Positions 7,416 to 15,075 of a stretch of 15,992 nucleotides of DNA are shown here, in pieces. Under the pieces are notes generated by a model. The model did not search any database. It was not told where the DNA came from and saw nothing but the letters and a program-made list of their open reading frames with translations. The stretch spans positions 1-15,992 of the forward strand of contig JANXNO010000084.1 of the NCBI GenBank assembly GCA_025354075.1, written 5' to 3'. Position 1 is the first letter of the stretch, and the number at the start of each line of letters is the position of its first letter. The DNA is from Burkholderiales bacterium. GTDB taxonomy: Bacteria > Pseudomonadota > Gammaproteobacteria > Burkholderiales > Casimicrobiaceae. The translations under genes and the position numbers were made by a program.

Positions 7416-7937
7416 TTACCGCGATGACCCCGGCTGCAAACTGAACGTGTCGTAGCCGACTTCCTTCACCCGACCTTCGGCGTTGTAAGTCACATCGAAG
7501 TATTGATCCTCGCTGCCGGTGTGGAATTTGAATTTGTGCGTCAGTTCATTGGGCGTCATGCCGAAGCGCTGCTCTTTGCTGTTTCGCCCAAGAATGCGCC
7601 GCACTTCGCTGATCGTCATGCCGGGTTGAATGCGCCTAAAGTTCGCCTCTACCAACACCTGATCAATCTTCTCAACCGTGCCTTGCGCGTTCACCGTCAT
7701 CATGTATGTGCGCACACCCTCGGGGCCTAGCGGATACTCCCAAACCTCTTTGGCACCCTCGCGATACACGTTCGCGGGTTCTCCCATTTTCAGCTTCATG
7801 TCGGCCACAGTCGATTGTCCGGCTTGCAGCTCGCCGGTAGCGACACGATCACAACCTGCCATCACCAACAACGTTGAAAATAGCCCCATCGCGATAGCCC
7901 CTTTGAATGAAATCTGCGTCATAGCCGTCCTCTTCAT
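7416..7937 (-). CDS. BamE/SmpA-like outer membrane lipoprotein with two repeats
   Basis: A 173-residue lipoprotein. The N-terminal signal peptide ends in LLVMAGC with Cys29 as the lipidation site (Met at -3 is slightly unusual). After it come two SmpA/OmlA-type modules: LQAGQSTVADMKLKMGEP (about 37-54) followed by a VWEYPLG strand, and IQPGMTISEVRRILGR (about 103-118) followed by HKFKF. BamE itself has one such module, so this is a relative of unknown role, probably periplasmic-facing at the outer membrane. Its ATG overlaps the TGA of the TadA-GNAT gene by four bases (ATGA), so it is the last gene of that operon. Confidence 0.8.
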   Translation of the reverse strand: MKRTAMTQISFKGAIAMGLFSTLLVMAGCDRVATGELQAGQSTVADMKLKMGEPANVYREGAKEVWEYPLGPEGVRTYMMTVNAQGTVEKIDQVLVEANFRRIQPGMTISEVRRILGRNSKEQRFGMTPNELTHKFKFHTGSEDQYFDVTYNAEGRVKEVGYDTFSLQPGSSR

Positions 7938-8914
7938 AGAATTTTCCGCATATCGCGATGTGGAATATTGCAGTCGAGATATTCGCCGCCTTCCACCACA
8001 AACCCAAACTTCTCATAAAAGCCAATCGCATGGGTTTGCGCCGATAAAACGACCTCGCGGTCACCACGTTGACGCGCGCGCGCCATCAGGTGCTGCAATA
8101 CGAGTCCTCCTACGCCAAATCCGCGAAAAGGTTTGAGTACAGCCATGCGCCCGATATGTCCGTCCGGCAAAAGGCGGCCACAGGCAGCGGCCTTGCCGTT
8201 TGACCACGCGATGGCATGAATCGACAACGGATCGTACGTGTCAATTTCTTCGTCAGCGGGCACATTCTGCTCTTCAACGAATACTTCAAAACGAATCGCT
8301 TTAAGTGTGGCCATATCGTCAGGCCAGGTCGCCGTTTTCACTTTGAATTCTGGTTTCATCGTTGCGGGCAATCCGCGCCTTCCGCTAAAAAAAATTTTCA
8401 ATCGTAGCGCGGATTCATCGGCAAATACACCGCCGACGACAGCACGTGCATGATGATTCAAACGCGGCTCCGCGAACAGATCAACCACGCTGCCAGCCGC
8501 ACCGAATTTCAGGTCTGGCGCGCCCCACACCACTCGGCTCAAGCGCGCATGAATGATCGCACCAGCACACATCGCACATGGCTCGACTGTCGTATAAATC
8601 GTCGCGCCCGGCACCCGATAATTGTTGATCGCCCGAAAGGTGTCACGCAGCGCAACCACCTCGGCATGCGCGGTCGTGTCGCCGTTGCGAATCACGCAAT
8701 TCATGCCGCGACCGACGATCTGTCCCGCCACGACCACTACGGCGCCAATCGGCACCTCACCTGCCGCGCCGGCCTCGTCCGCGAGTAGCAGCGCTTCGCG
8801 CATGAAGCGCTGGTCGTCTTCTGTTTGTCCCCTCTCCACTCGCGGGAGAGGGTTAGGGTGAGGGGGCGGCTGATGGGAGGAGAGACCTTTCACAGCCCCA
8901 ATCGCTCCATCCAC
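7934..8914 (-). CDS. tadA: TadA tRNA adenosine-34 deaminase fused to a GNAT acetyltransferase
   Basis: A single 326-codon frame. Residues about 35-178 are TadA, which converts A34 to inosine in tRNA-Arg(ACG): HAE at 83-85 (zinc His and proton-shuttle Glu) and PCAMC at 112-116 (two zinc Cys). Residues about 186-326 are a GNAT of the ElaA-like kind, with FEVFVEEQNVP at 209-219 and an acetyl-CoA loop RGFGVG at 264-269. The TadA end (LRLKIFF, residues 170-176) falls on a run of eight T, and one slipped base gives an immediate stop. ATG 8359 (Met186) could start the GNAT part alone. The N-terminus is uncertain: residues about 15-30 translate a repeat element, and the ATG at 8914 lies inside the end of paiB. 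Met38 (8803) or GTG 8839 are possible real starts. Both enzymatic parts look intact. Confidence 0.85.
   Translation of the reverse strand: MDGAIGAVKGLSSHQPPPHPNPLPRVERGQTEDDQRFMREALLLADEAGAAGEVPIGAVVVVAGQIVGRGMNCVIRNGDTTAHAEVVALRDTFRAINNYRVPGATIYTTVEPCAMCAGAIIHARLSRVVWGAPDLKFGAAGSVVDLFAEPRLNHHARAVVGGVFADESALRLKIFFSGRRGLPATMKPEFKVKTATWPDDMATLKAIRFEVFVEEQNVPADEEIDTYDPLSIHAIAWSNGKAAACGRLLPDGHIGRMAVLKPFRGFGVGGLVLQHLMARARQRGDREVVLSAQTHAIGFYEKFGFVVEGGEYLDCNIPHRDMRKIL
8385..8398 (-). other. candidate slippery site T_TTT_TTT with -1 frame stop at the TadA/GNAT junction
   Basis: On the minus strand the zero frame reads ATT TTT TTT AGC, with eight T at 8394-8387. This is a canonical X_XXY_YYZ heptamer. 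A -1 shift, or one extra T in the transcript, gives TAG (8387-8385) straight after the run and would release TadA ending at LKIFF. Whether slippage occurs cannot be told from sequence, and a base-call error in the run would look the same. Confidence 0.35.
8828..8866. repeat. REP-like hairpin repeat (CCCTCTCC/GGAGAGGG type)
   Basis: CCCTCTCC (8830-8837) and GGAGAGGG (8845-8852) form an 8-bp stem with a 7-nt loop, followed by TTAGGGTGAGGGGG. Translated on the minus strand it gives the familiar spurious peptide PHPNPLP. This type is widespread in proteobacterial genomes. It sits between paiB and the TadA core. Confidence 0.65.
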
Positions 8915-11351: not shown

Positions 11352-12725
11352 TTACGTCGACGTCATCGTGTAATCTTCTTTGCCATCCTTCATCGACCAG
11401 CCGCGCGCGGTGAGCTCGCCGCGCAACCGGTCCGCCTCAGCCCAATCCTTCGCGTTACGCGCGGTCCAACGCGCCTCAGCCAACGCGCGGACATCGCCAG
11501 GCACGTCTTCAATTTTTGGCACCCATGACGTCAATCCAAGACCGAATGCCTCGTCAAACTTGAGTATCGTCGCTTTTTTTACGCCCGGTGCGAGGCCAGA
11601 TTTCAGCACTTCGAACGCCAACGCCAAAGCTTGCGGAAAATTTAAATCGTCGTTGAGTTTTTCCATTAAACGTTCAAAGAATCCGGCGTCCACTGTCGTC
11701 GCTTCACCCAACGAATAGACGTTATTGCGAAGCCGGTCCAGCCCCGTTTGTGCGGCGTCCAGCGTCTCCCAACTGAAGGAGAGCTGCGTGCGATAGTGTC
11801 CAGTCAGGCAAAGATAACGATAGGCGATAGGGTCGTAACCCTTATCGATCAACAACTGCACGCGCAAAAACTCGCCCGACGATTTGCTCATCTTTGCGTC
11901 GTTGGTGATTAAAAAATAGCCGTGCATCCAGAAGTTCGCGAGCCGAGTGCCGTACGCCGCTTCGGTCTGCGAAATTTCGTTGGGATGATGTACGGTAATG
12001 TGATCTTCGCCACCGCAATGAATGTCGAAATATTCACCGAGATATTTGTGCGCCATCGCTGAGCATTCGATATGCCAGCCCGGAAAACCGCGTCCCCACG
12101 GCGAATCCCATTCCATCTGACGATGGTCTTCGGGTGCGGAAAACTTCCACAGGGCGTAGTCGGTTGAGTGTTTCTTCTCGCCCAAATCAACGCGCGAACC
12201 CGCCTGCAATCCGGCGATGTCCAACCGTCCCAGATGCCCGTAACTCGCCTGCTTCGACGTGTCGAAATAGATGCCGTCGCTGGTGCGATAGGTGTAGCCC
12301 TTCTTCTCAATTTCTTCGATAAAACTAATCTGCTCGGGGATGTTGTCGGTGGCCTTGCACCACACGTCCGGCTCTTGGATATTGAGCGCTTTCAAGTCCG
12401 CACGAAACGCGTCGGTGTAAAGCGCAGCTATCGTCCACGCGGTCTGGCCGGTGCGTTTGGAGCCTGCCTCCATCTTGTCTTCGCCGTCGTCACCATCGGA
12501 CACCAAGTGCCCGACGTCGGTGATGTTCATGACATGATTGACGCGATAGCCATTGAGTTTGAGCACCCGCACCAAGCCGTCTTCAAAAAGATACGTGCGC
12601 AGGTTGCCGATGTGTGCATAGTTGTAGACCGTCGGCCCACAGGTATACAGCCCGACCTCGCCTGGTTTCAGTGGCGTGAATTCGCGTTGCGAGCGCGTCC
12701 AGGTGTCATAAAGTTGCAAGGACAT
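11352..12725 (-). CDS. cysS: cysteinyl-tRNA synthetase
   Basis: Charges tRNA-Cys with cysteine using ATP; class I synthetase. From ATG 12725 the protein is 457 residues, close to E. coli CysS (461). The ATP motifs are HIGN at 38-41 and KMSKS at 278-282. Zinc ligands are visible: Cys29 in YTCGPTVYN, Cys221 in [10 protein letters not shown], His246 and Glu250 in HHPNE. The frame is open for 44 codons upstream to GTG 12857, but that part covers a terminator hairpin and is not synthetase-like, so it is leader. The ribosome site before 12725 is weak. A Cys-rich leader ORF and an intrinsic terminator lie directly upstream, suggesting expression is set by charged tRNA-Cys. Confidence 0.96.
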
Positions 12726-12756
12726 ATTTTGGTGCAATGTAGCGACTGTGTGGAAC

Positions 12757-12782
12757 AAAAAAGGCTGCACCGGGCAGCCTTT
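12757..12782 (-). terminator. intrinsic terminator in the cysS leader (candidate attenuator)
   Basis: On the minus strand AAAGGCTGC (12782-12774), loop CCGGT, GCAGCCTTT (12768-12760) is followed by T to 12757: a 9-bp stem with a 6-T run. It ends 31 nt before the cysS ATG, leaving little room for a separate promoter, so transcripts reaching cysS probably have to read through it. Confidence 0.75.
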
Positions 12783-12804
12783 ATTACAGCGCGGATCGAT
12801 GAAA

Positions 12805-12912
12805 CTAATGCGCTGTGTGCGGCCTGCCAGTGGATAACGATGCCGACAACGATCCACCGCGCGCCCACAAGAAACAACTGCAACAAAGACAACCGCGCTT
12901 CACTGCAATCAT
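12805..12912 (-). CDS. Cys-codon-rich leader peptide of cysS
   Basis: A 35-codon ORF from ATG 12912 to TAG 12807-12805. Codons 8-13 (12891-12874) read Cys-Leu-Cys-Cys-Ser-Cys, within [10 protein letters not shown]. Four Cys codons in six is far beyond chance for the rarest class of residue, and the next gene is cysS. The ORF ends 22 nt before the terminator stem. GGCAGGCC at 12828-12821, inside the ORF after the Cys codons, can pair with GGCTGCC (12779-12773) in the terminator's 5' arm with one bulge, so a ribosome stalled for lack of Cys-tRNA could favour antitermination. The ribosome site before the ATG is weak, and no clear promoter is seen between the subtilase stop (12946) and the ORF. 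Confidence 0.65.
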
Positions 12913-12945
12913 ACGACTTGCGTTAAGCACAGCGAGAGTGCTCCG

Positions 12946-15075
12946 TTACTGCGGCACGCAGAAAGCCACACGTGCCTGTGTCCAGCCAGCATCAACCATT
13001 CGTGCGATTTCGGCTGCATCGTTCAGCGTTCGCAAGTTATACCCCAAGCCATCCTGGCGAACAAACTCGTGCACTGGGTTACTTCCGCCGGGACACAGCC
13101 CCGCATTGGGAAGGGCCGCCTGAAATGCCATACCGTCCACCATCCAACCCGAATTGGCCGCGTACGCCTTGCACTCCTCAACGCTCGCGCTGAAGCCGAA
13201 CCCGCCCCCCGAGACCAACCTTGACCGGCATACGGGCTGGGCAATTGCCAGGGCGTTGAACTGTGCCGTGAAGCTAAATGTCTCAATGCTGAGTCCCGTT
13301 CGGGCCCATGCTCCGCCGCGCAAACCTGAAGCCATCTGAGCAATCTCAACCGGATCAGCGCTTAACGCGTAACGCCCCGTGACTGCTTCACGCATCTCCA
13401 CGAGGCGAACGCGATCTGCGGAGGCCGTCAGATCGTCAAGCAATCGGTTAGGAACAACCGCCGCCACTGCGTTGCTCGCATCCAGCATACCGGCACCACA
13501 TGCGCCCGGAGCCGAAGCGCAATCCGATCCCGCCACAAACGTGCGCGATGCGCCTATCAATCGATTAATCACCTGCCCGGCGGAAAGCGTCGGATCGCGC
13601 GCCAGCATCAGTGCAATAACGCCCGCTACATGAGGTGCGGCCATGCTGGTGCCGCTGTAGGTTGCATAACTTGGAACGCCCGGTTGAGTGATTCCCCCGT
13701 TCAATGTCGAGATCACGCCGGGCAAGTCGCCAAAGTCACCGCCCGGTGCCGTAATGCCAACACCTAGTCCAAAATTGCTGTAGCTGGACAAATCGCCCAG
13801 CAAATTACCCGCAGCGACTGCAATAACCCCATTGCAGTTGGCAGGCGTAAAGTCCGCGACGCGCGTAGCATCGTTGCCCGCAGCGACCACAATCACCGCA
13901 CCACGATTGATGGCAGCATCGACAGCCGCCTGCATGTTGGTACCGCAGGGCCCGTAACCGCCCAGACTCAGATTGATCACTTTCGCCGGATTCGGGTTAT
14001 TCGGCACGTCGGCTACCGGAACGCCCGCTGCCCAGCGAATTGCGTCGGCGACGTCATCATCTGTGCCGCCACAGCGGCCCAGCGCGCGGACCGGAACAAT
14101 GCGGGCATTGGGTGCTACACCCGAGATACCTTCGCCGTTATTGGCGCTTGCTGCGATGATGCCCGCGACGTGCGTACCATGCCACGAGCTGATGAAATCA
14201 AACGACGACGAACAATCGAGTCCATCGTCGTAATCGCCTGGATCCGTTGCGTCTGGATCGCGACTGTCACCATCGCTCGCAATAAATTCGTTGCGAATCA
14301 TGTCGTAGCCAGACATGCGTTTTGCATCAAGCTCAGGGTGAGAACGAATTCCTGTATCGATCACGGCGACCGCCACCGAGCCGGCCGGTGTGATGTCCCA
14401 CGCCTCAGCCGCGCGAATGCCGCCCACGCCTTTCCCTAGTGCCCACTGCTGGGCGAACATTGTGTCGTTCGGGATCCATTGGTGGCGAAGCACGCGAACG
14501 CGCTCGGCTGTGCGAATGAAAGGCTCGCTCGCAGCAGCGACGGCCACAGCAGCCAGAGACGCAGCAGTCGTGCCTGGCGGAAGCGTCACCAGCGCACGGT
14601 TTCCGGTGGCTACCCGCTTCAGGGCGAGCGCCTGCCCGGTGCGTTTTGCAAGCGCGCTGACCGTGACCGCTGCGCTACTACCTGGCTTCAGCGTGAGCGC
14701 AAGCATGCGCGAATGAAATTCAGTCTCAGGGGCCAAGCGCGCCAGCGGGGCGTCAACCGCACCGGAATGAGCCCACAACACACTAGATTGCTCACGCAGC
14801 GCCGTTGCAAGCGCGATCGCTTTCGCATCATCGGTTGTAATCAGAGCAAACCGACCATTACCCAACGAGACCGGTGCCGACTGACCCGCAGCTTGCGCAA
14901 GGCGCGCGGCTGTTACCTGCTCGCGGCCTTTGAGTTGCCCGCTGAGCTTAAATTCGACTGTGGTGGCCTCGGCGGTGACGCTTACCGCAGCGAGCGCTCC
15001 TGTCATCATCAGGTGAATAAAGCGAACGCTACGCCCCTTGAGGCACTGCGTTGCATCAACATTATCTTTTGTCAT
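12946..15075 (-). CDS. secreted subtilisin-like serine peptidase (S8)
   Basis: A 709-residue secreted protease. It has a charged start and a hydrophobic signal segment with likely cleavage near residue 37, then a pro-region to about 200. The S8 catalytic domain spans about 205-540: Asp240 in VIDTG, His299 in WHGTHVAG, Asn401 of the oxyanion hole in AAGND, and Ser477 in GTSMAAPH. Acidic inserts near 266-286 (SDGDSRDPDATDPGDYDDG) and several Cys suggest calcium binding and disulphides. The C-terminal about 95 residues contain two similar 41-residue modules (616-656 and 668-708) of unknown role. GGAGAG lies 6 bases before the ATG. The gene appears monocistronic, with the cysS leader following its stop. 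Confidence 0.93.
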   Translation of the reverse strand: MTKDNVDATQCLKGRSVRFIHLMMTGALAAVSVTAEATTVEFKLSGQLKGREQVTAARLAQAAGQSAPVSLGNGRFALITTDDAKAIALATALREQSSVLWAHSGAVDAPLARLAPETEFHSRMLALTLKPGSSAAVTVSALAKRTGQALALKRVATGNRALVTLPPGTTAASLAAVAVAAASEPFIRTAERVRVLRHQWIPNDTMFAQQWALGKGVGGIRAAEAWDITPAGSVAVAVIDTGIRSHPELDAKRMSGYDMIRNEFIASDGDSRDPDATDPGDYDDGLDCSSSFDFISSWHGTHVAGIIAASANNGEGISGVAPNARIVPVRALGRCGGTDDDVADAIRWAAGVPVADVPNNPNPAKVINLSLGGYGPCGTNMQAAVDAAINRGAVIVVAAGNDATRVADFTPANCNGVIAVAAGNLLGDLSSYSNFGLGVGITAPGGDFGDLPGVISTLNGGITQPGVPSYATYSGTSMAAPHVAGVIALMLARDPTLSAGQVINRLIGASRTFVAGSDCASAPGACGAGMLDASNAVAAVVPNRLLDDLTASADRVRLVEMREAVTGRYALSADPVEIAQMASGLRGGAWARTGLSIETFSFTAQFNALAIAQPVCRSRLVSGGGFGFSASVEECKAYAANSGWMVDGMAFQAALPNAGLCPGGSNPVHEFVRQDGLGYNLRTLNDAAEIARMVDAGWTQARVAFCVPQ

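Follow-up and report, generated by a model that had tools for sequence, protein, structure and literature searches.

A Predicted Leaderless Cysteine-Codon Attenuator Upstream of a Divergent cysS Gene in the Burkholderiales

The leaders of the trp, his, leu, and pheST genes are built from a run of codons for an amino acid, an antiterminator, and an intrinsic terminator, which precede a gene of the same pathway. The aminoacyl-tRNA synthetase T-boxes of the Firmicutes bind uncharged tRNA directly, without a uORF, and control termination. The polycysteine leaderless uORFs of mycobacteria were reportedly treated by Canestrari in 2020. Cys-run leaders are found with actinobacterial cys operons (PMC1262725; Shell 2015, PMC4633059), and those of Mycobacterium are without conserved terminator hairpins (PMC1262725). 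A 2026 paper gives translation attenuation as the mechanism of the mycobacterial polycysteine uORF (PMC13236596). The closest system is uORFC-8-2 of the Rhodobacterales, a predicted uORF with tandem Cys codons and a terminator at cysS, for which ribosome-mediated attenuation is proposed; UGC dominates, the tandem Cys codons are usually located at codons 14-15, and there are two stems (PMC8632094).

In this report, we analyze the leader of cysS in a stretch of 15,992 nucleotides (the window) from a Burkholderiales bacterium of the Casimicrobiaceae (GCA_025354075.1, contig JANXNO010000084.1), and all coordinates are window positions. The four parts of the trp, his, leu, and pheST leaders have counterparts here, the antiterminator as a candidate, but the amino acid is Cys and the gene is cysS, translation of the leader is probably leaderless, and there is little sequence conservation outside the terminator. 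Like a T-box, the leader is proposed to sense tRNA charging and to control termination, but it would do so via a uORF; a T-box covariance model found no match in the window. The Cys run, the position before cysteine genes, and probably the leaderless arrangement are shared with the mycobacterial polycysteine uORFs, which differ in the genes regulated and in being without conserved terminator hairpins. With uORFC-8-2 the leader shares tandem Cys codons in a uORF, a terminator, and the position upstream of cysS, and both are predictions. Compared by its published description, that alphaproteobacterial system differs in codon usage and placement, since TGT accounts for 45/84 of the leader Cys codons here and the Cys runs occur at varied codons.

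The preliminary description of this locus knew of no Cys-codon attenuator of cysS in the betaproteobacteria. That statement holds for the literature searched, which included few subscription papers and no supplements, and an earlier report may exist; the claim of novelty has to be toned down, because the same kind of leader has been predicted in the Rhodobacterales. uORFC-8-2 was the only cysS attenuator found in that literature, and the main texts of PMC2965389 and PMC4833913 do not mention cysS. Rfam scans gave no family match for the window leader and none to uORFC-8-2, a family that may be missing from Rfam. A match to RyhB (19 bits, gathering threshold 55) was taken as chance.

Leader anatomy and the candidate promoter

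All features of the leader are on the minus strand. The leader peptide ORF (uORF) has 35 codons (12805..12912), and a Cys-run ORF is found at this position in 18/18 near relatives, window included. Codons 8-13 encode CLCCSC (12874..12891), the run by which charged tRNA-Cys is proposed to be sensed; the Cys codons are numbers 8, 10, 11, and 13 (TGT 12891, TGT 12885, TGC 12882, and TGT 12876, respectively). The hairpin starts 22 nt after the TAG stop codon (12807-12805). It has 9 bp, a CCGGT loop, and a calculated energy of -13.3 kcal/mol, and reads AAAGGCTGC-CCGGT-GCAGCCTTT (12760..12782). The last three T of the hairpin open the six-T run (12757..12762), the first three of which are consequently paired within the stem. 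A terminator scan of 12600-13050 returned this hairpin as the single terminator (shuffle mean 0.5). The ATG of cysS (12725-12723) follows the hairpin by 31 nt. The gene (11352..12725) encodes a cysteinyl-tRNA synthetase of 457 aa including the start Met and is the proposed regulated gene; its identity is supported by PF01406 (E 4.5e-90) and TIGR00435 cysS (397 bits), both over cut-off. A candidate antiterminator strand, GGCAGGCC (12821..12828), lies between the Cys run and the stop.

The coordinates of the ORF and its Cys-Leu-Cys-Cys-Ser-Cys run in the preliminary description all hold, and its placement of the 9-bp hairpin and six T, 22 nt past the stop and 31 nt from the cysS ATG, is exact. 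The pairing that it had put forward between GGCAGGCC and GGCTGCC (12779-12773) is complementary with a one-base bulge, and its second helix, between 12855-12850 (GGATCG) and 12798-12793 (CGATCC), is likewise complementary in the window sequence. The 16 nt before the cysS ATG (12726-12741) have no Shine-Dalgarno-like motif (GGAG, GAGG, or AGGA), nor do those of the other 17 core loci defined below. The gene upstream of the leader (12946-15075) encodes a 709-aa S8 (subtilase) peptidase (PF00082), whose mycosin-like NCBIfam score is under cut-off. Elsewhere in the window, a single ORF (7934-8914) fuses a cytidine-deaminase-like domain to a GNAT acetyltransferase domain.

The 18 core leaders also share a candidate promoter. 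In 17/18 of them (expected 1.3), the end of a TAnnnT box lies 5-10 nt upstream of an in-frame uORF ATG, and in eight loci this box reads TAAACT. The window is the exception: its -10-like element, TTAACG (12921..12926), lies 8 nt before the uORF ATG and is the poorest of the core set, and a sigma-70 promoter scan of the window leader called none. A spacing of 6 nt between box and ATG is the commonest (24/46 leaders), a count biased by the choice of 28 of the 46 partly by the box and, in the core set, by taking the ATG nearest to 6 among several in frame. Genus members have no good -35 element, the best match being 2-4 of 6 positions, and loci of Massilia, Rugamonas, Crenobacter, Paraburkholderia, and Pseudogulbenkiania have a TTGACN -35 located 16-19 nt further up. 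The position of the -10-like box would place the start of transcription at or near the uORF ATG, which suggests that the uORF is leaderless.

Conservation and distribution

A cysS search of 64 family genomes identified 17 that belong to the genus of the window, its own genome included. One contig is cut inside cysS (G015), which leaves 16 genus genomes with upstream sequence; these and two genomes of the sister genus g3 make up the core set of 18. Upstream of cysS, 16/16 and 2/2 of these genomes, respectively, have a Cys-run ORF and, after it, a T-run hairpin. The leader peptides range from 14 to 35 codons and vary freely in sequence, and they share nothing but the Cys run, with a total of 3 to 8 Cys; Cys accounts for 84/484 codons. 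The preliminary description had asked whether the Cys run, its frame, and the distance from stop to hairpin are kept together, and this was found in 18/18 leaders, with a stop-to-terminator distance of 18-35 nt; outside the run, the peptide is not conserved. A Cys codon run that is kept while the peptide varies is what an attenuator predicts. Stems like AAGGCTGC...GCAGCCTT occur in the terminators of most genus members. In one locus (L016), the entire leader is displaced upstream, with 99 nt from hairpin to cysS, and in another (L011) the Cys-run ORF contains CC and an in-frame start lies further upstream. Among the Cys codons of the 18 leaders, TGT is used in 45/84 cases vs 11/93 in their cysS genes (p 2e-9); measured against the other NNY codons of the leaders, the bias is borderline (p 0.057).

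A fixed search was defined by an ATG, an ORF of 8 to about 40 codons, at least two Cys in six codons, and a terminator 8-60 nt past the stop. It was positive for 16/16 genus members, with a rate of 1.3% in their shuffles and 0.4-1.5% in shuffles overall; when a -10 box was also required 5-8 nt upstream of the ATG, 10/16 were left. Among the other loci of the family, those of g3 being counted here, 10/45 were positive, and many members with this cysS are thus without a leader by the search used. Positives amounted to 35/94 among the other window-type cysS loci of the order, a set covering 92 of the 105 genomes with this CysS type and leaving out the other 13, and to 5/29 among named Burkholderiales loci, whose genomes are partly shared with the other sets. 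The search found 0/41 positives upstream of canonical Burkholderiales cysS genes; this set had 42 loci before L187 was left out because its cysS start could not be placed, and one member (L166) has only 235 nt upstream. Window-type cysS loci with records not labelled Burkholderiales or Betaproteobacteria gave 0/39. Chance Cys pairs upstream of cysS in Chloroflexi, KSB3, and some canonical loci were rejected, having no terminator in the right place.

The order search covered 399 genomes, of which 392 had a CysS match. The CysS type of the window (E 1e-180 or better) was found in 20 genomes and one fragment, and the remaining CysS proteins of the order score at about 1e-90 or weaker and are 36-41% identical among the matches listed. 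For the family of G252, the window's CysS type was counted in 105/392 genomes. The window CysS belongs to a divergent type, relatives of which occur in Chloroflexi, Latescibacterota, and Gammaproteobacteria, and its best-scoring solved chain is 3sp1. Two genomes, G178 and G353, carry both types. When the label "leader or Cys run" was mapped on a FastTree tree of 133 CysS proteins, 13 changes were counted vs 41.9 after shuffling. The trait is clustered yet scattered over the betaproteobacterial window-type lineages, which fits an early presence with losses and does not imply a single origin.

Alternative pairing within and beyond the genus

The best duplex between the RNA downstream of a ribosome stalled at a CC pair of the Cys run and the terminator 5' arm plus loop was determined for the 18 core leaders. 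Relative to dinucleotide shuffles, the mean z was -1.18 (Stouffer -4.99), and own partners gave -15.5 vs -13.7 kcal/mol for species-swapped partners (permutation p 3e-4). The swap p was unchanged (3e-4) for the 15 genus leaders that remain when L018 is left out. That own partners outpair swapped ones points to joint change of the variable loop and the upstream strand. The partner ends -8 to +3 nt from the uORF stop in 12/18 leaders (expected 4.3, P 6e-5), where it would be covered by a ribosome that terminates translation. All of these p-values are optimistic, because the leaders are related. The genus was examined by swaps and shuffles in place of alignment-based covariation, because the leaders looked too divergent outside the terminator for an alignment.

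A predicted mutually exclusive antiterminator, maskable by a ribosome at the stop, is therefore found at the level of the group of 18; the window's own duplex taken alone is no better than shuffles (z +0.27). For the window leader with a ribosome at Cys codon 13 and the 3' arm not yet transcribed, the GGCAGGCC-GGCTGCC helix is part of the MFE fold. When the complete terminator was included, the stalled leader still folded into the terminator at equilibrium, so that the antiterminator would have to prevail by kinetics, as it does in known attenuators. The pairing probability was 0.79 for the stalled ribosome vs 0.45 for a ribosome at the stop, a difference that is partly trivial because less RNA is free in the latter case; the stalled value compares with 0.70 in shuffles (p 0.04), a weak effect. 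The window is a weak example of both the antiterminator and the promoter.

A similar leader was found at one locus each of Massilia, Rugamonas, Paraburkholderia, Crenobacter, and Pseudogulbenkiania. Outside the core set, 54 candidates were clustered to 28 non-redundant leaders, six loci having been barred by hand beforehand as chance (L115, L199, L226, L229, L231, and L243), some of which would fail the score anyway. For these 28 leaders, no signal of pairing with the terminator arm and loop was obtained (mean z +0.57, Stouffer +3.0; p 0.94 in the swap test), and the partner still ended near the stop in 11/28 (expected 4.5). Extending the arm into the 5' flank by 8, 12, or 16 nt gave swap p-values of 0.039, 0.0024, and 0.0002, with Stouffer values of -0.8, -1.2, and -2.9 and n of 28, 27, and 26, respectively; this extension was post hoc, made after the negative result and after GGCCATAGAAG and CTTCTATcGGCC had been noticed in one clade. 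The evidence for pairing outside the genus is mixed.

A second clade was aligned with 11 sequences, including L121 and leaving out L275, which has a longer 3-Cys leader. Here the stop-codon segment can pair with the 5' arm of the terminator and the adjoining flank; this helix is retained in 91.7% of cells, vs 39-54% when slid, and the terminator is kept in 100%. Compared with column shuffles, the percentage paired was not higher (231/500 as high), and the one double-change pair of the antiterminator was equaled in 42/500. In 10/11 of these leaders, the uORF has 15-19 codons and a single Cys, and the antiterminator strand includes the stop codon; the leaders of this kind (L270, L271, L273, L274, and L276-L281) often have an ACR..P-like end. 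Of the 35 rows in the clade to which Undibacterium belongs, 18 show a Cys run but no terminator by scan and 16 have neither; the lone "leader" label there (L199) looks like a chance hit. Six Undibacterium-type loci (L062, L072, L095, L118, L195, and L198) have Cys runs at or beside the uORF stop, up to CCCCCC*, and no intrinsic terminator was found in them.

Proposed mechanism and alternatives

We conclude, with a probability of about 0.88, that the cysS leader is a ribosome-mediated transcription attenuator. Transcription would probably begin at the uORF ATG or no more than a few bases away. When Cys-tRNA is plentiful, the ribosome would pass the Cys run, reach the uORF stop, and cover the surrounding segment, so that the terminator hairpin would form and transcription would end before cysS. 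When Cys-tRNA is scarce, the ribosome would stall in the Cys run, leaving the segment between the run and the stop free to pair with the 5' arm of the terminator (and with its loop or 5' flank); termination would then fail, cysS would be made, and charged tRNA-Cys would be restored. We infer the start site, the stalling, the termination, and the response to cysteine supply from what the sequences themselves establish, namely the anatomy, its conservation, and the species-matched alternative pairing at group level. Because the arrangement is kept in every genus genome that could be checked, it is very probably a switch that raises cysS when charged cysteine-tRNA runs low.

The preliminary reading of the locus as Cys-codon attenuation is favored by the comparative evidence, that is, by the conserved run and terminator and by the species-matched pairing near the uORF stop. 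The same evidence bears on a rival account, in which the hairpin does no more than terminate the upstream serine-peptidase gene, the Cys ORF is there by chance, and the cysS promoter follows the hairpin. The peptidase gene does end at 12946 on the same strand, 163 nt before the hairpin, and the window has a TACATT box 10 nt before the cysS ATG. However, a search for a promoter between hairpin and cysS, which the preliminary description had named as counter-evidence to attenuation, found TAnnnT in only 3/18 loci, the window among them, against 17/18 for the -10-like box before the uORF ATG, and the Cys run is kept in 18/18 near relatives and is absent in controls. This account is very unlikely.

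Slightly less improbable, though still unlikely, is an action of the uORF via translation (by coupling, or by exposing the cysS start) or via Rho, with no part for an intrinsic terminator, a mode that has been suggested for the Cys-run leaders of cys operons in actinobacteria. All 18 core leaders have the hairpin and T-run 18-35 nt past the stop, and the species-matched pairing involves the terminator 5' arm, both of which argue against such an action, whereas some Undibacterium relatives with Cys runs at the stop and no terminator by scan would suit it, as would the Cys-run leaders without terminators described for Mycobacterium (PMC1262725). The least probable of the alternatives, and one to which we attach hardly any weight, is that the Cys-rich peptide is a functional small protein that senses metals or redox state, the terminator being incidental. 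Metal binding is possible for CC and CxC motifs, but outside the Cys run both length (14-35 codons) and sequence vary freely, and some more distant relatives have a single Cys.

We give an even chance to a wider form of the attenuator reading. In that form, a Burkholderiales-wide family of leaderless Cys-codon attenuators would go with a single divergent lineage of cysS and be missing from the canonical cysS genes of the order. The antiterminator strand would be located at the uORF stop, its partner drifting between the terminator loop, arm, and 5' flank; a single Cys would suffice in one branch, and in some Undibacterium a run at the stop would work without a recognizable terminator.

If attenuation by the cysS leader is correct, the betaproteobacteria would gain a sensor of tRNA-Cys charging that follows the logic of trp attenuation, and they would be a second proteobacterial lineage beside the one predicted Cys-codon cysS attenuator found in the literature searched. 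The natural variants, with 1 to 8 Cys codons and differing placement of the antiterminator, may then allow one to ask how many codons are the minimum for stalling and what geometry the switch requires.
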